Assembly: GCF_000949635.1 (NCBI RefSeq)
Contig: NZ_BAFN01000001.1
Coordinates: 1,550,001 to 1,614,000, forward strand
Direction: 5' to 3'
Length of the DNA: 64,000 nt
Origin: Candidatus Brocadia sinica JPN1
Lineage (GTDB): Bacteria; Planctomycetota; Brocadiia; Brocadiales; Brocadiaceae
This document shows positions 27,667 through 42,982 of the stretch, piece by piece. A program made the position numbers and the translations under genes. Below the pieces are notes generated by a model. It worked only from the letters and a program-made list of their open reading frames with translations, was not told the DNA's origin and ran no database searches. The first letter of the stretch is position 1. Every line of letters starts with the position of its first letter.

Positions 27667-28679
27667 ATTTCGTGAGAAATCAAAGATTGAAGCACACACT
27701 TTTGTTTATGGGAATTGTCTGCATGATGTTCTTTTGTAAGTTTTATGATGCCTATGCAGATACTTATACAGACGGTAGGATTATAGTAAAACACGAGGAA
27801 TTACCCGTAAAAAAGAATGGCCGTCATATTCAATTTGATCATCCCTATGAAGTGGCAGGGAATGTTATTACCAATGCGTTGTCTTATATCTATTTTGAAG
27901 AAAAGGGCCTGTTGAAAAAGAAAGGAACCTTAAGGGTCTTTCAGGACGATGAGATAAGAAAATTGGTTCCCCTGATTGTCCAGGCGCTTTCCGTTGCAAC
28001 GCCGACACAGGTTGTTACTGTTTCATCCTATTCTGAGCGCATACTTTTGACCGACCAGCAGAATTATTGCGCCATATTTATTTCAGATCGCAATCTTAAC
28101 ATTGCCTTCAGCCGCATTCATATGTTTCAGTCATATAATGATGCCATGTCAGAGAAAAAACGATATACAACGGCAAAAGAGAATCCTTCGCGGATAAGTC
28201 ACAGCCGCTTTTGGAAGTTGGTCCCGTCAGCAGGACAAAGGTTAGAACCAAGTCATGAAAACTGGCTTGTTATAGACTTGTCCAACGAAATGTACCAACA
28301 ACCTGTAGCGCAAAGGGTGGGGACGGTTGATGAAAAGATCAAGATGGGTACGTCTGAACTGGATGCCCGCCTGAAGAAGCTGGAAGAAAGAATGGTGGCT
28401 GCCGATGAAACGAAAGTAAATAAACCAATAACTTCAGTAAGAGAAAACGGCAGTGAAAGCAAGATAAAAAGTAAGTTGGTCATACTGCGTGAAATGATGG
28501 AAGATGAAATTATATCCGAAGAGGATTACGACTACAAAAAAGTCAAAATGCTCAGAGAAGCTATGGGCGATATGAGTATAAAGGAACAGTTGCAGGTGAT
28601 AAAAGACTTAAAAATCGAAGGGCTTATTACAGAAGACGATTATAACGAAAAAAAGAAAGAATTATTGGATCAATTCTAA
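27663..28679 (+). CDS. Secreted protein with C-terminal SHOCT-like repeats
   Basis: The ATG at 27663 overlaps the radA stop (ATGA) and leads straight into a signal peptide (hydrophobic core about residues 11-27, DAYA cleavage region). A central domain of about 180 residues has no motif I recognise. A linker is followed by two helical hairpins with the SHOCT look (L-x-x-M-x-x-D-E-I-I-S-E-E-D-Y-x-x-K-K and L-K-I-E-G-L-I-T-E-D-D-Y-x-x-K-K-x-E-L), usually oligomerisation modules. Coupled translation with radA is probably an operon accident rather than a functional link. Confidence 0.75.
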   Translation: MNFVRNQRLKHTLLFMGIVCMMFFCKFYDAYADTYTDGRIIVKHEELPVKKNGRHIQFDHPYEVAGNVITNALSYIYFEEKGLLKKKGTLRVFQDDEIRKLVPLIVQALSVATPTQVVTVSSYSERILLTDQQNYCAIFISDRNLNIAFSRIHMFQSYNDAMSEKKRYTTAKENPSRISHSRFWKLVPSAGQRLEPSHENWLVIDLSNEMYQQPVAQRVGTVDEKIKMGTSELDARLKKLEERMVAADETKVNKPITSVRENGSESKIKSKLVILREMMEDEIISEEDYDYKKVKMLREAMGDMSIKEQLQVIKDLKIEGLITEDDYNEKKKELLDQF

Positions 28680-28769
28680 TTGCCGCGAAAGGGCCGTTTC
28701 CCTGCCCGCTTCTTTTTCAGAAAAATTAAATTTGATAAAAAATTCCATATTAATCTTATTATCATTCTT

Positions 28770-29558
28770 TTATAACTGCCCTCGCAGCTTCGCCCAAACA
28801 AGTCCTAAATATTCATGGAAAGCGCTCTCAGTTTTAAAGAATCCGCCTGCGTCCGGGAAAAACTGGAAAGGATTGCTACCTTGGCTTTCTTTGACCAAAT
28901 AACCTGTAGGGGCGGGAATGGGGCGCATGCCCAATTTTTTAAACAGTGCCATTGAGCGTGGCATATGAACGGCGGAAGTAACCAGAATAAATTCATCATC
29001 ACCGACGATTGGTTTCATGAATTGCGCCTGGTCTGCCGTATCTTTTGAACATGTCTCTAAAATGATATCTTCATGTTTTACGCCGATGGCCCTGGCAACC
29101 TTCTCCAGAGTTTCTGCCTCGGCGACCGCATCAAAAACCTTTCCTCCTGATAAAATAAGTTTGCTTCCCGGTATTTCGTTGTGGAGTCTTATGCCTTCTA
29201 TCAGACGAACTAACGACGCATCCGAGATTTGACTGGTAACAGGGATGTTTGGGTCAGAGGTGTGTCCTCCGCCCAAAACAACAATCCACCTCACCGATGG
29301 GATAATATCACTGCCGGATATATCTGATGTTGCAGCTATGCCGAGCGGCAGATATTGACGCTCTAATGGTCTTAAAAGTACGTTTGGAATACCCCTGTAG
29401 CTCAGGATTGTAAATAGAATCACGCCGGCTGTAACGATAAACTTTCCGATCCTTTGTTTTCTGGTAAACAAGAGCAGAAATAATCCAATAACCAATATTT
29501 CCAGGCAGAAAGGAACAGGAGAAAAGAATTGGGCAATAATCTTTTTTAAGACAAACAT
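28770..29558 (-). CDS. YdcF/ElyC/SanA-like (DUF218) membrane protein
   Basis: A 262-residue protein. Two N-terminal membrane helices (about residues 10-30 and 37-55) precede a DUF218 domain with VVLGGG, KLILSGGK, E-A-E-x-L, T-x-D-x-A and TSAVHMPRS motifs. The family includes E. coli ElyC, tied to peptidoglycan precursor metabolism and envelope integrity, and YdcF. The catalytic activity is unknown. It is the last of three closely spaced minus-strand genes (epimerase, methyltransferase, this one). Confidence 0.87.
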   Translation of the reverse strand: MFVLKKIIAQFFSPVPFCLEILVIGLFLLLFTRKQRIGKFIVTAGVILFTILSYRGIPNVLLRPLERQYLPLGIAATSDISGSDIIPSVRWIVVLGGGHTSDPNIPVTSQISDASLVRLIEGIRLHNEIPGSKLILSGGKVFDAVAEAETLEKVARAIGVKHEDIILETCSKDTADQAQFMKPIVGDDEFILVTSAVHMPRSMALFKKLGMRPIPAPTGYLVKESQGSNPFQFFPDAGGFFKTESAFHEYLGLVWAKLRGQL

Positions 29559-29587
29559 CTTTTCAGAAAGAACTGATAATTTAATTA

Positions 29588-30589
29588 TTATTTCTTGCCA
29601 ATAATCAGGGTCGAATTGGATTCCAAATCCATCCTTTTTATATCCCTAAAACCGCTTTTTACAAGCCATTCCCGATATTCAGCCTCGCTGTAAGATGCTC
29701 CTTCCTGTGTACCGATAAGCATATTGAGGCTGAAGAGTGCTGCAAATTGTGGACTTGTCCTGGTTTCGTCCAGTACAAATTCATGGATTAGCACTTGGCC
29801 GCCGTCTTTTAAGGCATCCCAACACTTCTTGAGGATCATGGTGTTATTTGTGGGACTATAAATATGTAAAAGGTTTGAGGCAAGGATCGCATCGTAGGTG
29901 CTTTCCCCAAAGGTGTCTTCCAGACAATTACCCGGTTGTGTGCTAACACGGTCGTCCATGTTTGCAGCCGTAATAAATTCCCGGGTGAGTTTGATTACAT
30001 GCCCAAGATCAAAGACGGTGGCATGCAGATACGGATTGGCCTGTGCAAGCGCGATAGAATATGTACCAGGGCCACCTGCAATATCCAACAACCTATTTGC
30101 CTTTTTTAAATCAATCTTTCTGCAAAGTTCCTCTGACTTTACCGAGGCGATGTTATGCATTGCCGTAATAAAAATTCTGAGATCATACTGATCTACTTCT
30201 TCGGGTAAATCTTTTATCGAAACAGGTTTTCCGGTTTCTATTGTCTCTCGCAGCATTGTCCAGTTTTCCATCATATTATGGAAATGATGGATGAAATCTC
30301 CCAGGTAATGGGGCATTCCTTTGATCAGGTGGAGATTTGATAGGTAGGTATTTTTGTAAGAGCCTTCCTCTTTAGCCAGTATTTCAAGGGAAACGAGTGC
30401 ATTGAGGAGCATCTCGGTTGCCCGTTCATTGGTGCGGATAGATTGCGAAATTTCTTTCGTGGTGAGCTTGTTTTTGCCAATAAGCGTAAATAGGTCAAAT
30501 TCTACGGCTGTAAAAAGGACATGAGATTTCCAATAGCCACAACTAAGTTGAAGGAGGTAATCAAAATGTGGATAGTTCGTAGAAGTCAT
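29588..30589 (-). CDS. SAM-dependent O-methyltransferase (AcsO-MT / plant-type OMT family)
   Basis: A 333-residue protein with an N-terminal winged-helix dimerisation domain (about 15-95, LFTLIGKNKLTTKEI) and a C-terminal Rossmann methyltransferase domain with the SAM motif DIAGGPGTYS (about 168-177), FDLGHV and GGQVLIHEF. This plan is that of hydroxyneurosporene and acetylserotonin methyltransferases, used on phenolic or quinone-like small molecules. Lying between an NDUFA9-like epimerase gene and a YdcF-like gene, it could act in isoprenoid, quinone or lipid modification; this is inference. Confidence 0.86.
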   Translation of the reverse strand: MTSTNYPHFDYLLQLSCGYWKSHVLFTAVEFDLFTLIGKNKLTTKEISQSIRTNERATEMLLNALVSLEILAKEEGSYKNTYLSNLHLIKGMPHYLGDFIHHFHNMMENWTMLRETIETGKPVSIKDLPEEVDQYDLRIFITAMHNIASVKSEELCRKIDLKKANRLLDIAGGPGTYSIALAQANPYLHATVFDLGHVIKLTREFITAANMDDRVSTQPGNCLEDTFGESTYDAILASNLLHIYSPTNNTMILKKCWDALKDGGQVLIHEFVLDETRTSPQFAALFSLNMLIGTQEGASYSEAEYREWLVKSGFRDIKRMDLESNSTLIIGKK

Positions 30590-30616
30590 TGTCGTTTAAA
30601 TGAAATTCCTCCGTTT

Positions 30617-31513
30617 TTATAGTATAAGATACCTGGATATTCCCGTTTTAAAACAAATGGGTTTGATGCTAAAGTGTTCAAAAAACGGTTTTTCGTCACA
30701 GGTATTACCCTCCAGTAACATAATAATTTGCTCTTTCGTAACGGGAAAGGCGGGTAACCAATCAAGCATTTCTGCTGCAAGGCTCATGAGGAAAACAGGA
30801 ATATGTAGCTTGTGCGGTGGTACACAGAGGACGTCACCAATGATATCAATGATTCGATTAAACTCAATCTTTTCTGGTCCACCCACATCAAAAGTTTTGC
30901 CTACGGCGTCTTCTTGTTCTATCGATTTGACAAAGCCCATCGAAACATTTTCTACTGCCACGGGTTGCATCTGATACCTTCCGTTGCCTATTACGGGCAC
31001 AAATTGTTGGGTTTTTAGCATGCCAGCAAACAGATTGACAAATTTATCTCCAGGCCCAAAGATAATCGAAGGACGAAAAATAGTGTAATCAAGCCCAGCG
31101 TTTCTTACGCATTCTTCTGCACGGGACTTGGTTTGTTGATAAGGGGTCTTGCCGTCTGGACGCGCTCCCAGTGCGCTCATCTGAATGAATCGCCTAACCC
31201 CCTGTTCTCGTGCTGCCCTGACAAGATTTGCCGTCCCCTCGTAATGCAATTTCTCAAAGGTAATCCCTTTTCCGGGGAACTCTCTGATAATTCCAACGAG
31301 ATTGATAATGGTATCACACCCTGCTAATTTGCCAGGTAAACTGCTGGGATCTGTAATATCGCCATGCACGATTTCAACATCTTTATAATGCGCAATCTTT
31401 TGTTCAGAACCCTGTCGAAGGATGCATTTAACCTGATAGTTATTTTCCAGCAAATCATGAAGTATTTGTTTTCCTACAAAACCCGTACTGCCTGTCAAAA
31501 AAACCTTCATCAT
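30617..31513 (-). CDS. NAD(P)-binding atypical SDR, NDUFA9/complex I-associated type
   Basis: A 298-residue epimerase-like Rossmann protein. The N-terminus reads FLTGSTGFVGKQI; the motif pair MSALGA and Y-Q-Q-T-K-S-R-A-E replaces the classical YxxxK; RPSIIFGPGDKF and VENVS are typical of the NDUFA9-like / NAD(P)H-binding group. A good ribosome site (AGGAGG) precedes the start. First of three tightly spaced genes with the O-methyltransferase and the YdcF-like gene. The substrate is unknown, and many relatives are structural nucleotide-binding proteins. Confidence 0.87.
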   Translation of the reverse strand: MMKVFLTGSTGFVGKQILHDLLENNYQVKCILRQGSEQKIAHYKDVEIVHGDITDPSSLPGKLAGCDTIINLVGIIREFPGKGITFEKLHYEGTANLVRAAREQGVRRFIQMSALGARPDGKTPYQQTKSRAEECVRNAGLDYTIFRPSIIFGPGDKFVNLFAGMLKTQQFVPVIGNGRYQMQPVAVENVSMGFVKSIEQEDAVGKTFDVGGPEKIEFNRIIDIIGDVLCVPPHKLHIPVFLMSLAAEMLDWLPAFPVTKEQIIMLLEGNTCDEKPFFEHFSIKPICFKTGISRYLIL

Positions 31514-31693
31514 CTGTTACCTCCTGAATGATGTAATTATGTACTTCCTGCCTGTATTTATGCAGTCAAAAGGGTAGTCAGGGAGTTGCTTCTTACGGCA
31601 TTCCCGAGGGAGAAACAGCTCCTTATCACTTCTTGTTCTCTTTTCCGAAGAGGGGTGTATTCATAAATAATTTCCCTGAAGAACGCACTTTTA

Positions 31694-34279
31694 TCAGCAG
31701 GTATTTTCCTGATGGGAAGGGACAAGGCTCCTGCATAAAAACAACCCCATTTCTCGAAAAACAATGTCCCTCTTGTCCTTAATGCATCTGGCATCCGGAA
31801 GAGACCGGAGAAATGTATGTCCATATTTTTTTGTAATCACACGACGATCGAAGATGATCACTACCCCCTTATCCTCACGACTGCGTATGAGTCTTCCGAA
31901 GCCCTGTTTGAATTTAATGACAGCCATTGGTAAGGAGTAATCGTAGAAGGCATCACCTCCATATTTTTCGATGGCCTCCGCCCTGGCCTCGATAATCGGT
32001 TGTGTAGGTACCTTAAACGGTAATCGGGTGAGAATGACGCATTCCAAAGCGTCCCCCTTGACATCAATTCCCTCCCAGAAGCTGTCCGTAGCAAATAAAA
32101 CCGAGGTCGTGTCTTTTTTAAAGGCTTCAAGGAGGTTGTGGCGGTTATCCATTCCCTGCCTCAAACAGGTATAACCGAGTTGTGTAATCTGCGGCTCTAA
32201 CCTTCGATAGAGGGTGTCAAGAAGGCTATATGATGTAAACAGAATTAATGCACGCCCTTCTGAGATTTTCACGGTTTTCAGGATACTCTCATCGAGGGCT
32301 GGAACATAACCCGGTTTGTCAGGTTCTGGAATATCCGTGGGAATTCCTATAATAGATTGCCTCTTATAATCAAAGGGAGAATCTACGATTAATTCGGACA
32401 GGCGATCCTCCGGCATTTGGTGTAAGCCAATATTGTTTTTAAAGAATCCAAAGGTCTTGCTTATCGTCAATGTGGCTGAGGTCAGTATTATTGTAGTATA
32501 ATTGTCATACAGATATGCCTTCAAATTGCCGGAAATGGACAGTGGGGCTGCGCAAAATCGAATGACTGGCACCCCTGCATACCTTTTGATTTCCATCCAT
32601 TTGCAAGTCCTTTCATCTTCTGTAATGAAGGAGGCAAGGTCGCCTGCTACCAATTTCAGACGCGTCTTGCAGGATACAATATCTATCAGCACGGGTGAAA
32701 GAGTATCTTGTGCTTTTCTGGATAGTTCCTCAAATGCATTTAACAGAGATGTTAATAGTGACACGAATTTGAGAATGTCCGTGCTTAATGCCCTGAGTCC
32801 TATCTCTATAACGTCTTGCCACAGGGTTGTGGAAAACATGCTTGTCGTGATACGTAATTTGGTCTCGTTTTCTTTTGTGTCATCTCTGTGAAAGTTTTTA
32901 TTCTTCATGTACTCGCTTAGTGCCCTGGAGATATTTTCAAAGACCCCTTGAACGGTATCGTAGAGACGCTGCCTTTCCTCCAGGATCTCTGCGTTGATTC
33001 TATTGGTAACTTCCATTGCAATAGATTTATCGTGAATCGAACTCATTTCCTTGAGCTTGTTTTTAAGGTACTGCAGAAGTCCTTTTCTGTTATCCTTTAA
33101 GTTAATCAGTCTTCCCAATAGCTTTGTTATCCTTACTCTCGAAATCGTGCAGCTCATATGTGCCGTTGCCACATCCTCAAGGTGGTGTGCTTCGTCAATA
33201 ATGATTTTCTTAAAAGGCGGCAAGATTGCTACGGCATCATAACCCTTTGTTTCTTTGCGCACGATCAGATCGGCCATCAGAAGATAGTGATTTACCACCA
33301 ACACATCAGCGCTGGCTGCATTTCTCCGGGCAATATAAAAAAAGCATTCGTCATAAAACTGACACTTCAGCCGCGTGCACTGGTCGGCCTCCGATTGTAT
33401 TGCTTCCCAGACATCCTCCTGTGGCACAAAATTCAGGTCTGCCTTGCTCCCATCCTGTGTCTTTGTTGCCCATTCCAGCAGATCGTTCAGCTGCTGCCGA
33501 TCTTTATCGTCAATTAATATGCCACCCTCAGAACGTAAATTATAAACCTTCCTCAGGCACAGGTAATTATTCCTGCCCTTTACCAGCACACTCTTAAAAT
33601 TGAGCCCACAACACTTTCTGAGTATAGGAATGTCCTTTTCGATTAACTGTTCCTGAAGATTTATCGTGTGGGTAGAAAGTACTACCCGTTCCTGGTTTTT
33701 CATACTCCAGAATACAGCCGGGACAAGATACGCCAGCGATTTCCCCGTCCCTGTTCCAGCTTCAATCACAGCAATTTTGTCTGCATTAAACGCATCAACA
33801 ACCGATTTTAGCATCTCGACCTGTGGCTTGCGATATTCATACTGAGACAAACACCGTGAAAAATTTCCTCCAGGTTGAAATTGTGTGGATAATTCATCAG
33901 AGTTTAGCCGCTCACACCCCCGCTCTTTCTTAACCGTTATCACCGGGTATAGATATTCTACGTTGTTATCCACAATATAGCATCCTACCCCAAGTTGTCC
34001 CATATATGACGCAATCTCAATGTCCGCATCGGAGGGATCCAGGATACCTTCCGGATGATTATGGATAATAACGTCACCATATCTTGCCTCTTTGATGATG
34101 GCAGGTACGGCACGTTTATTTCCCATGGCGTAAACATCTACATCAGTTACCACCTGTTCATTATTCAGTCTGCCCACCAGAAATACCTCGTTTCCACCTG
34201 CCTTTTCAACGACGTCACGGATAGACAAGATAGCGTCAGGTGCTATAAAATCCCTGGCAAACCATTTACTTGTTTTCAT
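31694..34279 (-). CDS. dinG: DinG-family Fe-S helicase with N-terminal RadC/JAMM-like domain
   Basis: An 861-residue protein. Residues about 1-115 resemble RadC/JAMM metal domains: HNHPEG (His73, His75), then PS-x-x-D (Ser83, Asp86) and a candidate Glu31 in NEVFLVGRL, the full set of JAMM ligands with RadC spacing. After a linker comes an XPD/DinG helicase: Walker A EAGTGTGKS (about 173-181), four candidate Fe-S Cys (NNYLC, DQC, LKC, DEC), DEAH box, and motif VI QGFGRLIRS near 780. DinG unwinds 5'-overhang DNA, R-loops and forked substrates. The JAMM-like part may be a metalloprotease or a degenerate binding module. The gene stands alone, 180 nt before the epimerase. Confidence 0.9.
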   Translation of the reverse strand: MKTSKWFARDFIAPDAILSIRDVVEKAGGNEVFLVGRLNNEQVVTDVDVYAMGNKRAVPAIIKEARYGDVIIHNHPEGILDPSDADIEIASYMGQLGVGCYIVDNNVEYLYPVITVKKERGCERLNSDELSTQFQPGGNFSRCLSQYEYRKPQVEMLKSVVDAFNADKIAVIEAGTGTGKSLAYLVPAVFWSMKNQERVVLSTHTINLQEQLIEKDIPILRKCCGLNFKSVLVKGRNNYLCLRKVYNLRSEGGILIDDKDRQQLNDLLEWATKTQDGSKADLNFVPQEDVWEAIQSEADQCTRLKCQFYDECFFYIARRNAASADVLVVNHYLLMADLIVRKETKGYDAVAILPPFKKIIIDEAHHLEDVATAHMSCTISRVRITKLLGRLINLKDNRKGLLQYLKNKLKEMSSIHDKSIAMEVTNRINAEILEERQRLYDTVQGVFENISRALSEYMKNKNFHRDDTKENETKLRITTSMFSTTLWQDVIEIGLRALSTDILKFVSLLTSLLNAFEELSRKAQDTLSPVLIDIVSCKTRLKLVAGDLASFITEDERTCKWMEIKRYAGVPVIRFCAAPLSISGNLKAYLYDNYTTIILTSATLTISKTFGFFKNNIGLHQMPEDRLSELIVDSPFDYKRQSIIGIPTDIPEPDKPGYVPALDESILKTVKISEGRALILFTSYSLLDTLYRRLEPQITQLGYTCLRQGMDNRHNLLEAFKKDTTSVLFATDSFWEGIDVKGDALECVILTRLPFKVPTQPIIEARAEAIEKYGGDAFYDYSLPMAVIKFKQGFGRLIRSREDKGVVIIFDRRVITKKYGHTFLRSLPDARCIKDKRDIVFREMGLFLCRSLVPSHQENTC

Positions 34280-34590
34280 AATTTAGTGTTTGGAGATTTT
34301 ACTGTGATCAACTTGTTCCCAGGCTCAGGCTTGGGTGTCAGAAAATCTTAATGTAGTATAAAACAAAATACGCATATTATACAATGAAAAACAGGTTAAT
34401 TTGACCGCCTGGCACAAAGACACAAAAATTGGAGAACAGTTTCTCTGACATCATTTGCTGATTAAGGCTATCGGATTGTGAATCCCCTTTGCGTCTGGTG
34501 TCTTGGAATTGTCTTTTGTTTTATCGCTTGACTCTTTTTCACGTTTTCATATAATAAATTTTTCTTTAATCTCTGAAAGGAAATAATATC
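34280..34590. other. Divergent intergenic region
   Basis: About 310 nt between dinG (minus) and the aminotransferase (plus). No ORF or strong hairpin. The ribosome site GAAAGGA for the plus gene lies at its right end. Promoters presumably lie here, but none is convincing. Confidence 0.35.
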
Positions 34591-35736
34591 ATGAAAAAAA
34601 ATTATCTGTTTACACCGGGACCAACCATGGTGCCACCTGAGGTTGCATTGGCTGAGGCGCAACCCATGATCCATCACAGGACGCCGCAGTTTTCACAAAT
34701 CTTTTATGAGTTAAGCGAGGACTTAAAGTACTTATTCCAGACAAAGACAGGCGAGGTCTTTACCCTCATGTCGTCGGGAACGGGCGCTATGGAGGCATGC
34801 GTTGCGAATGTCTTGTCCAGAGGCAATAAGGCGCTGGTTGTTATCAGTGGAAAATTCGGTGAGCGCTGGGCAGAGTTGTGCAAGTGTTTTGGCATTGAGA
34901 CTATTACGATTGATGTTGAAAATGGCAAGGCAGTGAATCCGGCAGATATTGACGCCGCACTCAAGAAGACGTCTGGAATTAGTGCCGTATTTACAACTCA
35001 GTGCGAGACCTCTACCGGTGTCGTGCATGATATAAAATCCATTTCTTCTCTTGTGAAGAAATATGGGGCACTCATGATCGTTGATTCCATTACAGGGATC
35101 GGTGTCCATCAATTTTTCATGGACGAATGGAATATTGATGTTGCTATTACTGGTTCGCAGAAAGGATGCATGATGCCGCCCGGTCTGGCCTTTGTTTGCG
35201 TTAACAGCGGCGCCTGGAGTGTTATTGACAAGGCGGATTTGCCCAGATATTATTGGGATTTCCGAAAGATGCGGAAAGAGTTAAAAGACAAGACGACCCC
35301 CTTTACACCTGCGGTTTCTCTGGCCATGGCAATGAAGACGGCTATGGATATGATTAAAAAGGAAGGGATTGAGAATGTGTGGAAGAGACACGCCCGCCTT
35401 GCCAATGCCACAAGGGAAGGTGCAAAGGCGCTTGGCCTGGAACTCTTTGCCGGGGAATATTCAAGCAACGTGCTGACAGCAATTAAGGCACCCAAAGGGG
35501 TAGATGTTGATAAGATTATAAAAAAGCTGCGGGATGAAACAGGGGTAACTTTTACCGGTGGACAAGACGAGTTGAAAGGGAAAATTATCAGGATTGGCCA
35601 CATGGGTTATGTAAATGACTTCGATATCATTGTTGCCATTGCTGCACTTGAAAAAGGACTTTATGAAGCGGGATATGCCGTAGAATTAGGGAAAGGGCTT
35701 TCTACGGTGCAATCGTTGCTCGTAAGTAAGAAATAA
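34591..35736 (+). CDS. Class V PLP aminotransferase (serine-pyruvate / alanine-glyoxylate type)
   Basis: A 381-residue aminotransferase. The N-terminus has the FTPGPT motif, with HHRTPQF, SSGTGAMEA and the PLP Lys191 in TGSQKGCM; ETSTGV and VDSITGIG are also typical. Such enzymes are often annotated as alanine-glyoxylate or phosphoserine-type transaminases. In anaerobes lacking SerC, members of this group have been proposed to serve serine or glycine synthesis. The glycine cleavage genes gcvT and gcvH lie 20 kb away. The exact substrate pair cannot be read from the sequence. Confidence 0.88.
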   Translation: MKKNYLFTPGPTMVPPEVALAEAQPMIHHRTPQFSQIFYELSEDLKYLFQTKTGEVFTLMSSGTGAMEACVANVLSRGNKALVVISGKFGERWAELCKCFGIETITIDVENGKAVNPADIDAALKKTSGISAVFTTQCETSTGVVHDIKSISSLVKKYGALMIVDSITGIGVHQFFMDEWNIDVAITGSQKGCMMPPGLAFVCVNSGAWSVIDKADLPRYYWDFRKMRKELKDKTTPFTPAVSLAMAMKTAMDMIKKEGIENVWKRHARLANATREGAKALGLELFAGEYSSNVLTAIKAPKGVDVDKIIKKLRDETGVTFTGGQDELKGKIIRIGHMGYVNDFDIIVAIAALEKGLYEAGYAVELGKGLSTVQSLLVSKK

Positions 35737-36039
35737 AAACAACCATCGGATAACTATCTAGTCATTGGTGTTCTAAGTAGGAGCCGGCGCCCGTTGGCGA
35801 CTCTGTTGTGTGCACGTCGCTGTGGATTGTCGATCGCTGTTAGGTGGTGGCTCCTGCCTGGCGTGCTATCATTTCCCGAATGCCTTTGAGACTCCTCAGA
35901 AACGCACAGGTAATAAGATTTTAGTGTCTTCAGAAAAATATTTTGGCAATTTTGGCAAAAACATTTTCGCTGGCACCATGTAGGGCAACCCTTTGGGCTT
36001 GCTTTCTTGCAATAAACACAAGATTTTATCGTGAGTCCA

Positions 36040-36890
36040 GCCGGACGGTTGAGGCCTTGCCTTGCATTTCTCTCCCGAGCCGGCATTTCAAAATTCAAAT
36101 ATTTGCTACCGATATAGATTCCGATGCCATCAATTTTGCCCGTGCTGGTGTCTACCCGAAAGTATTGTCACAGATATACCACATGAGTTACTGATGTATT
36201 TTACCAGTAAAACAGATGATACATATGTTATCAACAGCCGGATCCGGGGAATGGTGACCTTTGCGAACCACAATTTCATCAAAGATCCGCCTTTTTCCAA
36301 ACTGGACGTAGTCAGTTGCAGAAATCTGTTGATTTATTTAGAGCCCGTGTTGCAGAAAAAACTCATACCGCTTTTTCACTATATACTAAATCCGGAAGGA
36401 TTTCTTGCTCTCGGAAACTCAGAGACTGTCGGGGAGTTTACTCACCTGTTTTCAGTCGTGGATGAGAAGTGTAAAATCTTTCAGGCTGGAATTTTGGAGA
36501 GATATGGATTCCTGATTCCACCGGTACATATCTCGTACGAAATGCGACATGGTATAGCACTGTTGATGGTTTGGAAAAATTTACTCTTTCAAGTATAGGG
36601 CTTACGCTTCCGAAGGGCGCAGGACTTCCCGGTCGCGTCTGGTCATCGAAACAGCTGGAGTGGGTGAAAGATGTTGCCCATGATACGAATTTCATAGGTG
36701 CGCAGGTCGCTCTGGAAATTGGGTTCAAAGCCGGGCTGGCAATCCCAATCCTTGCAAGGAAAGAAGTCGTTGCGGTGATGGTGTTCTTTGTGTTTGAAGA
36801 ACGTGAAGAGGATAAACAGCTTATTAATCTCATTTCATCTGTTGCTTCATAATTGGATTTGTTTATTCGGCAAAAACAGGTGGAAGAGAT
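36040..36890 (+). pseudogene. Decayed CheR methyltransferase-GAF signalling gene
   Basis: Frame 1 (to about 36155) encodes QIFATDIDSDAINFARAGVYP; after a frameshift, frame 2 continues with FANHNFIKDPPF, VVSCRNLLIYL and LALGNSETVGEF, clearly the C-terminal half of a CheR-type protein-glutamate methyltransferase. From about 36571 a third frame encodes part of a GAF domain (GAGLPGRVW, VALEIGFKAGLAIPIL), stopping at 36852, with further matching residues (LFIRQKQVEEM) past the stop. At least two frameshifts and several stops show a dead remnant of a larger CheR-PAS/GAF sensor. The 5' part (35750-36040) is unrecognisable. Confidence 0.8.
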
Positions 36891-37087
36891 GTAAAAGAAA
36901 CTGGATGTGCTGCAAAAGGAGTAAAATAGCACGTATTTTTCTCTTGTGGTTATCCAAAACAGCGTCCAATAATGGGCTGAAGTTTGCTATAGTGAGTGAA
37001 AAAAAACGTTGACGCAGCCCAGTACTAAAAGCACTGACAGTACAGTTTGATATTTACAATCTATTTCAGGCAAGTTGTATTCAACAA

Positions 37088-38188
37088 TTATGCCTTGACA
37101 AACCTTTTGCCTGAAAGTTGTTTCACCAATTTCTTTATTTCGAGGATCATGAGAGTGCTTGATACGACGGAGGTGGGGAGCTTTGCGATGCGTATAATTT
37201 CGTCTATGTCTTTCGGGCTGCTGGATAAGAGAGAGAATATTTTTTTTTCCTGAGAGTTCAACGACAGGCTTCTTGGGTCATTTGTTGCAGAATCGTCTGA
37301 TGTCCTTAGCGTTTCTGCTATTGGTCCTAACTCTTGAATGATATCGGTAATATTCTCGACGAGTTTTGCACCTTCCTTGATGAGTTTGTGTGTGCCCCGG
37401 CTATAAATGTTATCAATATTGCCCGGGACGGCAAAGACCTCTTTCCCCTGTTCGAGCGCCCACTGGGCAGTTATCAGGGAGCCACTGTTTAGCGCCGATT
37501 CGACCACAAGCACCCCTAGAGACAAGCCGCTAATAAGCCTGTTTCTCGGTGGGAAATTGCGAAAATCGGGTGGTGTGTTCATGGGAAATTCAGATACCAG
37601 AGCGCCGTGCCGGGCGATTTGTTCTGCCAGTTCGATATTTTCCCGGGGATAAATAACTCCTAGGCCACAGCCGAGCACTGCAATGGTACGTCCGTTGGAT
37701 TGAATGGCGCCACGATGTGCAGCAGCATCTATTCCCCGTGCCATACCGCTTACAATACAAAGTCCCTTCTGGGCAAGGAGCCGGCTAAAACGCTCTGCCT
37801 GAGAGAGACCGTAATAGGTGCAACGTCGTGCTCCTACAATGGCGAGGGCAAGGATGTCCGATTCGAGGATATTGCCCTTTACATAAAGGACAAGTGGTGG
37901 GTCGTAGATAGTCTTGAGGTGTTTCGGATACTGTTCACTCGTGTAAGGCAGGATCTGAACGTCCTTTTCTTTGGCCAGATTCATCTCAGTTGAAATGTCA
38001 ATGTTTTTGGATTCCTCGACAATAGCGTTTGCTAGCTTTGGACCGATGCCCGGTACTGCCTCTAGTTCTGATTTGGTTGCGCTGAGGATTGCCTCCGAAG
38101 AACCGAACCTATCTAAAAGTGTTTTATATGTCCGTATACCAATCCCCTTCGTCATATTCAGACGTAAGAGGGCCTCAAACTCCGTCAA
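37088..38188 (-). CDS. dprA: DNA-processing protein DprA
   Basis: A 366-residue protein that loads RecA on incoming single-stranded DNA in transformation. N-terminal HhH region (AVPGIGPKLANAI), then the Rossmann-like DprA core with AIVGAR, SGMARGIDAAAH, VIYPREN, FPPRNRLISGLS and EQGKEVFAVPGNI, and a C-terminal winged helix (about 300-366). Full length. It is 99 nt downstream of aroB on the same strand, a palindrome lying between. Confidence 0.96.
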   Translation of the reverse strand: MTEFEALLRLNMTKGIGIRTYKTLLDRFGSSEAILSATKSELEAVPGIGPKLANAIVEESKNIDISTEMNLAKEKDVQILPYTSEQYPKHLKTIYDPPLVLYVKGNILESDILALAIVGARRCTYYGLSQAERFSRLLAQKGLCIVSGMARGIDAAAHRGAIQSNGRTIAVLGCGLGVIYPRENIELAEQIARHGALVSEFPMNTPPDFRNFPPRNRLISGLSLGVLVVESALNSGSLITAQWALEQGKEVFAVPGNIDNIYSRGTHKLIKEGAKLVENITDIIQELGPIAETLRTSDDSATNDPRSLSLNSQEKKIFSLLSSSPKDIDEIIRIAKLPTSVVSSTLMILEIKKLVKQLSGKRFVKA

Positions 38189-38230
38189 TGTGGTCTCCTC
38201 AATTAGTCCTTTGGCAGCTTTTATAACAGT

Positions 38231-38254
38231 AGTGGCAAGGCTCGCCTTGCCACT
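38231..38254. repeat. Perfect palindrome between aroB and dprA
   Basis: AGTGGCAAGGC and its exact complement with only TC between. No T run, so it is more like a dispersed palindromic element than a terminator. Confidence 0.6.
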
Positions 38255-38287
38255 TGCATAGTTGGTTTGGAATTCCTTAGCATTATA

Positions 38288-39367
38288 TTAAAGAGGCTTA
38301 TTCAAGACGCGGTATAAAATTTCCTCAGTTACCTGGTCCGATATAATAACCTCACCAATTTTTATGGGCAGGATAAAACGAAGCCTGCCGGAAATGGCCT
38401 TTTTGTCGGTGTATAGCGCTTTTACAATGTCCGATGATTTTAATCCTGTATGAATCGGCAACCCCAATCGTTTTATTAATGAAAATTGCCGCTCCAATAC
38501 CCCATGATCAGTCAATCCCATTTCAACGGCAATCCTAGTGGCGTAAAGCATGCCAATGGCTACTGCTTCCCCATGTCTGTATTTTTTGTAGTCGGTGACC
38601 GTCTCGATGGCATGACCGATGGTATGTCCATAGTTTAATATGGCGCGCAGGTGTTTTTCTTTTTCGTCTTCTTCCACAACATTTGCCTTGATCTGACATG
38701 ATGTGGCGATAATTTTCAGAAGGGCAGTGTCGTTCAGTTGTAATATGTCATAAAGGGACTTTTCTATATATTCAAATAATTCAGCGTCTCTGATTACTCC
38801 ATACTTGATAACCTCCGCAAGCCCTCCCACAAGTTCTGTCGCCGGTAATGTGGAGAGGGTATCGGTATCGATAAAAACAGCTTTGGGCTGGTAAAAACTC
38901 CCGATCATATTTTTCCCTTTCGGGTGGTTCACGGCCACTTTGCCTCCAATACTGCTGTCTACCTGCGCAAGGAGTGACGTGGGCACCTGAATGAAGGGGA
39001 TACCCCGCATGAAAGTAGCAGCCACGAAACCGCTGATGTCACCCACCACGCCTCCGCCTAATGCAACGATAAGGGAGTTCCTGTCCAGCTTATGATCAAA
39101 ACATGCGTCATAAAGTGTCAGTGCTGTTTCCAGGGTCTTCTGCTCTTCACCGGGTTTCAGCGAGATAAGCCTGACATCAAATGTATTTCGCACCAGACTT
39201 TCCGATACGATATTACCGTAAACCTTTTCAATGTTTTTGTCGGTAATCAGGAGTGTCTTGCACGGTGCTTTCTCTTTTACTAAGGCGTCCCCAATTTTCC
39301 CGAGAATGCCTTTGTCGATAGAAATGTTGTAACTATTGGAGGGTAAGTTAACACGTATCGTCTTCAT
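38288..39367 (-). CDS. aroB: 3-dehydroquinate synthase
   Basis: NAD- and metal-dependent enzyme of the shikimate pathway, 359 residues. Motifs: GGGVVGDISGF, ATFMRGIPFIQVPTSLLAQVDSS (metal and substrate binding across this region), GGLAEVIKYG, and NYGHTIGHAIE with metal-binding His. Full length and uninterrupted. No other aro genes are adjacent. Confidence 0.96.
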   Translation of the reverse strand: MKTIRVNLPSNSYNISIDKGILGKIGDALVKEKAPCKTLLITDKNIEKVYGNIVSESLVRNTFDVRLISLKPGEEQKTLETALTLYDACFDHKLDRNSLIVALGGGVVGDISGFVAATFMRGIPFIQVPTSLLAQVDSSIGGKVAVNHPKGKNMIGSFYQPKAVFIDTDTLSTLPATELVGGLAEVIKYGVIRDAELFEYIEKSLYDILQLNDTALLKIIATSCQIKANVVEEDEKEKHLRAILNYGHTIGHAIETVTDYKKYRHGEAVAIGMLYATRIAVEMGLTDHGVLERQFSLIKRLGLPIHTGLKSSDIVKALYTDKKAISGRLRFILPIKIGEVIISDQVTEEILYRVLNKPL

Positions 39368-39487
39368 AAAAGTTACTATTACCTGAATCTTGCATAAGTG
39401 CAGGATAAAAGATGGTGAAACTATAAAGATTACCTCATTATAATAGGGTAAGTGAGATTAACCGAATAATAAGAGGAGGTCGTCCAG

Positions 39488-39690
39488 ATGGTTAAAAAGT
39501 AAAATAAGAATACCGCCAAAAGGGAGGAAAATCAAGAAGAAGGTGTCTGCCCAGCAAAGACTAGTAAAATAGGGCATTCTACGCCGTATGATTATTACAG
39601 TGAGCGGTTAAGCCCATTGGAATGGCTTTTGGGGCTGGTAAAGTTTGTGGAAGCTTATAATAAACGCCATGCACTTGCACACTTATTTTC
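39488..39690 (+). pseudogene. Broken gene start, possibly a transposase remnant
   Basis: A strong ribosome site (AGAGGAGG) precedes an ATG, but codon 5 is TAA. The same frame then continues for about 60 codons, including TPYDYYSERLSPLEWLLGLV and FVEAYNKRHAL, before a TGA. The segment recalls the N-terminus of DDE transposases of the IS1380/IS4 kind, and the following 150 nt give weakly similar fragments in other frames. Attribution to a transposase is tentative; the broken state is clear. Confidence 0.4.
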
Positions 39691-40097
39691 ATGACCTTTT
39701 GTGAGCCTTTGGCTCATGATTGTTTACTGCGGATTTAATCCGGAATACCGATTCTGTCTGTCCTGTACAGGTTGAGCACACTGTTTCAGTTCTCTTCCAC
39801 AATCGTTCAGTGGCACTACAGCAGATAATGCTTCCAGATAACGCTCATTGACAATTTTTGATACTTCAGTAGAACGGGATTTATTTGCCGGGAAAGAGCA
39901 TCAAATGTCTTTGTAAGATTGGCGTCAAGAAGCCTTTCCGCTATCTCTTGTTTCCGCTTTACATCATCAACTTGAATATCATTCGGTCAAACGTTGAAAG
40001 TGCCCCCGTGATTTTGTTATAGTATTACCCTGTAAAAACTTCTTTTTTTGTAAGTTTTTCTTCGTACCCTTCGTGTTCTTCGTGATTAAGTTCTTTT

Positions 40098-40121
40098 GGG
40101 TTACGGCTTTGCTGCGCTGGG
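40098..40121. repeat. Short hairpin repeat, GGTTAC-GCTTTGC-GCGCTGG type
   Basis: Resembles segments at 55945-55964, 56549-56582 and 59886-59909, all of the form GGTTGC/GGTTAC, a short centre, then TGCGCTG. Proposed dispersed repeat. Confidence 0.4.
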
Positions 40122-40490
40122 ATATTGCTCTAGAAATTTCTCTATTGCCGTTGCATGGTACGATTCCCACTCTGTCAGGCTTGGAACTCAGTTTTATGAA
40201 ATCGAACCAGTGGTAGGGAGTAAACGGGAAGGATATATTTGAAAAGCTTGTTGCTTAGAGAATTAATACAAAAAAGGAACAGATAGAGGGTCAGCGACTC
40301 TTTTAGAGAAAAATAGTTGCCAAACCTGACAAGGAGCAGGCATAATGGTTTCATCGATGAGGAACTGGATTTCATCCCGTCAATTTCGCTCACAGCTACG
40401 ATATTAAATACGTCTAAGTAAAGAATTGGACGCAGAGGATTGAGATTGGTAAAATAATACATAAAATGATTGTTACCAAAGGAGAAGAAA

Positions 40491-40544
40491 ATGAGCATTG
40501 GGATTACGGTTGAATTAAAAGTGGAAGATATTGCAAATAAATGA
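40491..40544 (+). CDS. Possible 17-residue leader ORF coupled to the heme-sensor kinase
   Basis: [17 protein letters not shown], preceded by a strong ribosome site (AAAGGAG, 6 nt) and ending in TGA that overlaps the kinase ATG (ATGA, 40541-40544). The kinase start has no ribosome site of its own, so it probably depends on this ORF for translation. It may be a leader peptide, or the truncated start of a small protein (the sequence looks like the N-terminus of a small antitoxin-like protein). Low certainty on its own product, better on the coupling role. Confidence 0.45.
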
Positions 40545-42982
40545 AGATCAGACATAAACTTGTTATCCTCCTGGCCGTGCTGCTGGTTACCCTGAACGGC
40601 GTGATTGCCTTTTCAGTTTATAAACGAACACGTCAGGAATTTATCAAAGAGGTTCGCGAAAAGGCCAAGTTGATTGCTACGGAATTAGAAACTACCAGAA
40701 ATTATCTTGCCTTCGCCTTACAAACGTCCAAAATCGGGATTACAGAACAGACAAAACCTTTTATTCCTGCCGTTTCAGGCCATGCCATTGGCTTAAAATT
40801 TGCCGAAAAAACCGGATATATTATTAAACAAACAAGTATGAAATATAGAAATTTGTTCAATAAACCCGATCCCTTTGAAGAAATGGTGCTCAGGAAAATG
40901 GAGGAAAATCATAATCTTACTGAGTATTGGAATGATGACGTTATAGATGGGAAAAGGGTGGAACGTTATCTGTACGCCTTATACGTAAAAGAAGATTGTC
41001 TCCTTTGCCACGGACCAGAAGAAAAAGCCCCAGAATTTATACGAAAAAATTACGATGCAGGTTACGATTATAAAGTAGGAGAATTGCGAGGGGCGATAAG
41101 TGTCATTATTCCGAAAGAAATCGCTGAACAGCGGTTCGCAGCGAACGTTGTTTTCTTCATTACCGCCAGTTCTGTTAGTATCTTGTTGCTCGTGGCTATT
41201 ATCTTTCTGACAACAGGAAAATTTATGAAGCCGATAGAAAGGTTAACGGCTGCTGTGGCTACCATCACAAAGACAGGTGATCTTACCACGAAAGTAGATA
41301 TATTGTCTAAGGATGAGGTGGGACAGCTGGGCAGGGCATTTAATGATATGTCTACCAAATTGCAATCTACGTATGTTACGCTGGAGCAACGAATTGCCGA
41401 AAAGACTGCTCATTTGCAGCAGGCCGTTTTGGCCTTAGAACGAGCGAACAAGATGAAATCGGAGTTTCTGGCCAACATGTCACATGAACTGCGTACACCA
41501 CTCAACGCCATAATCGGCTTTGCGGAGGTCCTCCGGGATAAGATTTCCGGCGACCTGAATGAAGAGCAGATGGACTTCGTCAATGACATTCACAGTAGCG
41601 GCCGCCATCTCCTTCAGATGATCAACGACATATTAGACTTGTCTAAGATCGAAGCAGGCAAAATGGAATTACAGTACGAAGCCTTTCTTGTGTCTGAGGC
41701 CATTGAGGATGTGTATACAATATTAAAAGGACTCGCCAGTAAAAAACATCTGGAATTGAAGACTGCAGTATTAACAGATGTGAAAAGCATAGAAGCGGAC
41801 CGGGTCAAATTTAAACAAATCCTGTATAACCTGCTCTCGAATGCCATAAAATTTACTCCGGAAAACGGGAAAATTACCCTAGAGGCTGGCATTGTGGACG
41901 ATATGTTGCAGGTATCGGTATCTGACACGGGGATTGGAATGAAATCGGAAGATCAGGAGAAGGTGTTTAAAGAATTCTGGCAGGCAGACAGCTCTTTTGC
42001 CAGAAAGTATGAAGGAACAGGATTAGGACTTGCCCTGACCAAAAGGATTGTCGAGATGCATGGAGGGAAAATCTGGTTTGAAAGTGAATACGGAAAAGGG
42101 AGTATATTTTATTTTGCATTACCCTTAAATGCCCCGGCCAAACCGATACACCCGAAAGAGAGCGAGGCCAAGCCTCGCCATATAGTACCCACCGGAGAAA
42201 AGGGGGCAAAAACCGTTTTAGTTGTTGAAGATGACCGTATGGCTGCTGACCTTCTTACCCTCTACTTAACAAATGCCGGATATAATGTTATCGTAGCTGT
42301 GGATGGTGAAGAGGCTATTAAAAAGGCGAAAGAATTCCACCCATTTTTGATTACCCTGGATATTATGTTACCAAAGAAAGATGGATGGGACGTCCTTTCT
42401 GAGCTGAAAAATTCTCAAGACGTCACCGATATACCGGTAGTCATCGTGTCGATTGTCGATAATAAAGAACTCGGCTTCAGCCTGGGCGCTGTAGAATATT
42501 TAATTAAACCTATCGATAGGGAAAAACTCATTACTACAGTGAATGCCTGCATTCCTATTGAAAGGATTGAGGGCAAACCTATGAAAATATTGGTCGTGGA
42601 TGATGATGAAAAGGCTGTGAAATATATGAGCGCCATACTTGAAAATGCAGGCTTTGACGTACTGAAGGCATACAGTGGTAAAGCAGGAATCAATCTCGCT
42701 GTTAACAGCAACCCGGATCTCATGATACTCGACCTTATGATGCCGGAGGTAAGCGGTTTTGATGTAATTGAAAGGCTCAGGGTTCATCCAATAGCAAAGG
42801 GAATTCCTATCATTATTTGTTCTGCAAAGGATATTACCCCTGAGGAAAAAAAAGTATTAAACGGCCATATTTTAGCCATCGTTCAAAAGAGCAGCCATAC
42901 GAAGGAAGACCTTCTTGCGGCTATTAAGAAGATAGAACAGTTACATGTTAAAAAAGACACCACAGAGGCAGAGAGTTCGTGA
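40541..42982 (+). CDS. Hybrid histidine kinase with CxxCH heme-motif (Tll0287/DUF3365-like) sensor
   Basis: An 813-residue protein. TM1 (about 7-27); an extracytoplasmic DUF3365/Tll0287-like domain with a c-type heme motif C153-L-L-C156-H157; TM2 (about 203-225); HAMP (about 226-280); a short coiled coil; HisKA with His315 in SHELRTPLN; HATPase ([20 protein letters not shown]); then two receivers with phospho-Asp in LITLDIM and LMILDLM. The sensor faces the periplasm, where heme could be attached, and might read redox state, NO or oxygen. Receiver genes follow at 43077 and 43456. The linker before the first receiver contains a translated palindrome (42162-42178). Confidence 0.92.
42162..42178. 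repeat. GCGAGGC-CAA-GCCTCGC palindrome inside the kinase gene
   Basis: Perfect 7-bp arms, 3-nt loop, translated as part of ESEAKPRH in the linker between the HATPase and first receiver domain. Confidence 0.6.

Follow-up and report, generated by a model that had tools for sequence, protein, structure and literature searches.

A subgroup of DinG helicases termed 'RadC-like DinG', with Desulfuromonas soudanensis as an example, was already named, with its characteristic residues, in a 2025 review (PMC11981726), and the fusion of RadC with DinG/RAD3 had been noted earlier by Aravind's group (PMC5512222). In the full-text literature, the phrase 'RadC-like DinG' was found in PMC11981726 alone, the main text of which mentions neither Planctomycetes nor Brocadia. 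The protein described here, from the anammox-type bacterium Candidatus Brocadia sinica JPN1, features the same architecture, metal and catalytic residues and helicase domains as the published subgroup, i.e., the conserved E, H, H and D together with Walker A, the DEAH box and four FeS-cluster cysteines, and its Desulfuromonadales homologues were recovered by direct search. Apart from the taxa covered by the review's text, no difference from the subgroup was apparent. The RadC-DinG architecture is real, widespread and already known, and the novelty that the first-pass annotation of this DNA had implied is not sustained.

Several other systems resemble the protein in part. ExoDinG proteins (DnaQ-DinG, e.g., S. 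aureus DinG, 9ii8) likewise possess an enzymatic module at the N-terminus, which is an RNase_T/DnaQ exonuclease in their case and a JAB domain in the Brocadia protein; in some other planctomycete DinGs, such an exonuclease (PF00929, E = 2e-27 to 1e-32) occupies the position of the RadC-like domain. RadC (PF04002; structure 2qlc) has the fold, the HNHPxGxxxPSxxD signature and a conserved Glu in common with the DinG domain. Nevertheless, stand-alone RadC mostly scores above 100 bits against PF04002, compared to about 20-31 bits for the DinG domains, and features a VHPRE segment and an N-terminal HhH region, whereas the DinG domain shows no VHPRE in the alignment, begins at residue 1 without HhH and is fused to a helicase. 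JAMM/MPN+ isopeptidases (PfJAMM1, CsRpn11, AMSH-like Sst2) share the fold and the ligand pattern, but carry HS/TH where the DinG domain has HNH, with 10-21% identity in fold alignments. Finally, the PADLOC typeIV_DinG models for CasDinG (Csf4) match the helicase part, but the NCBIfam model cas_csf4 scores 112 against a cut-off of 400. Among the open reading frames listed at 28000-42000, none stood out as a cas gene.

Architecture of the 861-residue protein

The window, i.e., the whole analysed stretch of 64,000 nucleotides, contains an open reading frame on the reverse strand which encodes a protein of 861 aa. This is almost certainly a RadC-like DinG, an FeS helicase with an N-terminal RadC-like JAB/JAMM domain, and the remainder of the protein corresponds to a DinG/YoaA-type helicase according to Pfam and NCBIfam. 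It is the sole PF13307 helicase and the sole DinG-family helicase of the Brocadia sinica genome. Its features are as follows (window coordinates):

31694..34279, reverse strand: RadC-like DinG (JAB/JAMM domain and XPD/DinG-type FeS helicase), 861 aa
33920..34279, reverse strand: N-terminal RadC-like JAB/JAMM domain, residues 1 to about 120 (Pfam, AlphaFold2/Foldseek)
33992-34189, reverse strand: PF04002 match proper
34187..34189, reverse strand: Glu31 in NEVFLVG, position of the catalytic Glu, invariant in 80/80
34052..34063, reverse strand: H73-N74-H75-P76, two predicted zinc-ligand His, invariant in 80/80
34022..34033, reverse strand: S83-x-x-D86, predicted oxyanion-position Ser and zinc Asp, invariant in 80/80
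33737..33757, reverse strand: Walker A GTGTGKS, residues 175-181 (homologue alignment)
33344..33559, reverse strand: FeS-cluster cysteines C241, C301, C306 and C312, present in 80, 78, 80 and 80 of 80
33185..33196, reverse strand: DEAH box, residues 362-365 (homologue alignment)
31793..32284, reverse strand: Helicase_C_2 (PF13307), residues 666-829 (Pfam)

The residues stand at the numbers given by the first-pass annotation, with E31 in NEVFLVG, HNHP at 73-76 and P82-S83-D-A-D86 thereafter, and the resulting H-x-H-x(7)-S-x(2)-D is the JAMM spacing. The JAMM/MPN+ motif H(S/T)H-x7-S-x2-D is matched in E, H, H, x7, S and D, the middle residue being N in 80/80 sequences. Separately, the forward strand at 36053-36852 features a CheR methyltransferase-like remnant and a GAF-like stretch, divided between two frames (36053-36598 and 36475-36852; named by eye), which looks like a decayed gene.

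Profile and structural evidence for the RadC-like domain

Searched with the protein alone, PF04002 (RadC) scored 21.5 bits (E = 2.3e-4; residues 38-95) against a cut-off of 22.1, and in a six-frame search of the whole genome the DinG frame reached 24.2 bits, above this cut-off. The same model matched 46/46 diverse homologues scanned (best E = 1.1e-7). The NCBIfam RadC models gave weak matches, and phmmer aligned the protein with the solved RadC 2qlc at E = 2.8e-4. Moreover, when the domain profile was compared with a profile of 30 planctomycete RadC domains, the probability was 97%; Glu31 fell opposite the Glu conserved in RadC, including the true RadC of the B. sinica genome, and HNHP...PSxxD opposite HNHP...PSxxD.

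An AlphaFold2 model of the domain, built from 18 aligned sequences that cover the first 130 residues, showed a mean pLDDT of 84 and a pTM of 0.78. In a Foldseek search against the PDB, five chains of Chlorobium RadC (2qlc) ranked on top (E = 8.9e-6 to 8.6e-5), followed by PfJAMM1, Rpn11, BubCD, CSN5, AMSH-like proteases and other JAB/MPN proteins, with modest TM-scores of about 0.4-0.6. A fold different from JAMM had been named beforehand as the outcome that would speak against the domain; the model gives a RadC fold (2qlc best) and not another. Taking fold and alignment together, the putative ligands Glu31, His73, His75 and Asp86 would be expected to cluster. The full-length model (pLDDT 85.6, pTM 0.81) best matched E. 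coli-type DinG 6fwr (E = 6e-39), the above-mentioned S. aureus DinG 9ii8 and XPD. It further includes a helix at 837-852 after the last strand, which may correspond to the additional C-terminal helix that YoaA carries behind its second motor domain. From motifs and fold, 5'-3' unwinding of DNA would be predicted.

Distribution and history of the fusion

A scan of GTDB genomes for the same fusion, likewise suggested by the first-pass annotation, revealed 80 loci, which are spread over Brocadiales, Desulfuromonadales, Geobacteraceae, KSB1, Sumerlaeota, Nitrospinota, Dadabacteria and others, with DinG sequence behind the domain at all of them as far as contigs and frames allow. In 80 distinct near-full-length sequences, which reach down to 38% identity, no substitution occurs at E31, H73, N74, H75, P76, P82, S83 or D86, nor at G175, K180 or the DE of DEAH. 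HNHP belonged to one of the two search patterns and its invariance in 80/80 is partly selected, while E31, S83 and D86 were absent from both patterns. Against this background, it is barely conceivable that the N-terminal stretch is no JAMM domain and reflects a chance motif or a mis-annotated start. The Pfam score of the protein alone, just below the cut-off, speaks for this reading, and the six-frame score above it, the matches in all homologues scanned, the RadC fold, the invariant ligands and the homologous N-termini speak against it.

In 294 planctomycete genomes, the domain model separated two score classes. The strong class (86-245 bits) lies in frames of 724-1339 aa, with one exception of 357 aa, and the weak class (at most 31.5 bits) in other, mostly RadC-sized frames. 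Twelve of the strong hits outside Brocadiaceae (about 31-43% identity) were retrieved, and every one featured the helicase, the Glu and HNHP...PSxxD. A stand-alone copy of the DinG-type domain was not seen in these 294 genomes, in which the helicase was looked up in part of the frames. Likewise, 50,697 phage records held no match that would indicate a phage origin of the domain, and the comparison of gene neighbourhoods across lineages showed no conservation beyond family-level synteny.

Some loci are interrupted. Both in Candidatus Brocadia carolinensis (L043) and in Sumerlaeota (L057), the gene falls into two frames, which reflects either a genuine frameshift or a fault of the assembly. In a genome of the same genus (G004:C1:511074-513375), pieces of the DinG match lie in different frames interrupted by many stops, which might stem from indel errors in a long-read assembly.

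In a tree of the helicase part only, the root of which was not inferred, a single branch (SH-aLRT 91, one change) splits 45 fused DinGs from 24 domain-less planctomycete DinGs. A single fusion that persisted across phylum-level divergence would be the simplest reading of these sequences. Brocadiaceae are placed near Desulfuromonadales in this tree, apart from other fused planctomycetes; a single clade of fused planctomycetes was not rejected (p-AU 0.068), and the idea that Brocadiaceae obtained the gene horizontally from a Desulfuromonadales-like donor was dropped on account of this value.

Candidate functions of the domain

RadC-type JABs have been argued to be without a groove for the ubiquitin tail and to be more likely nucleic-acid-processing (PMC5512222; PMC3482391). 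A role on nucleic acids is also favoured by the published authors for the fused domain, as it occupies the nuclease position of other DinGs (PMC11981726; PMC5512222). In the B. sinica genome, HNHP occurs in the true RadC and in DinG, and HSHP in the CysM-adjacent Prok-JAB/JAMM. The latter, a Prok-JAB protein of 141 aa beside a CysM-like gene (C1:551144-551482, L163), is perhaps a JAMM peptidase of the CysO/Mec type.

Given the RadC-type HNHP and the nucleases that other DinGs carry at the corresponding position, we regard nucleic acid as a likelier substrate than protein. Following this, the domain would bind Zn2+ and act as a catalytically active zinc hydrolase tethered to the FeS helicase, working in place of the DnaQ-type or other nuclease of other DinGs and processing the strand or lesion laid bare by the helicase at forks, flaps or R-loops. 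Whether the domain hydrolyses nucleic acid by this mechanism appears to us evenly balanced. RadC as best fold match, the invariance of E31, H73, H75, S83 and D86 and the retained Walker A and DEAH box are in its favour. Still, the nearest fold relatives of known activity after RadC are isopeptidases, the ligand set is equally compatible with peptide hydrolysis, and we know of no RadC-family protein with demonstrated nuclease activity. The neighbourhood comparison across lineages provided no conserved gene that favours either substrate.

Alternatively, the domain might be a metalloprotease which cuts proteins that the helicase runs into while translocating, e.g., those covalently attached to DNA, or which strips off a protein modifier. 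The full JAMM ligand set including the oxyanion-position Ser and the proteases PfJAMM1, Rpn11 and AMSH-like among the fold matches argue for this, as does a human precedent, in which a crosslinked protein is first unfolded by the XPD-family relative FANCJ and then cut by a separate metalloprotease, SPRTN (PMC12279946). By analogy, RadC-like DinG could combine FANCJ and SPRTN in one bacterial chain, the helicase unfolding DNA-bound protein and feeding it to the built-in metalloprotease for DNA-protein crosslink repair, which we regard as quite improbable. The broader protease reading is possible, although rather doubtful, as the domain carries HNHP and not HS/THP, the published groove argument (PMC5512222) stands against it, no conserved partner gene occurs among the neighbours, and full-text literature on DinG and DNA-protein crosslinks showed no such role among the matches listed. 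The fusion proposed in the first-pass annotation is borne out by profile, fold, conservation and survey, while HNHP, the neighbourhood and the groove argument lean away from the metalloprotease action attached to it.

A non-catalytic module, which like MPN- domains binds zinc and another protein or DNA structure to aim or gate the helicase, seems unlikely. Scaffold roles are common among JAB/MPN domains, and to our knowledge no activity has been proven for RadC itself. Nevertheless, scaffold MPN- domains typically lose the catalytic-type residues, all five of which are invariant here over phylum-level divergence.

The fusion bears on the long-standing question of what RadC does. As it links a RadC-type domain with a helicase whose biochemistry is defined, activity assays on RadC-like DinG, so far unexplored experimentally, could reveal from a single protein which substrate RadC-type JAB domains act on.
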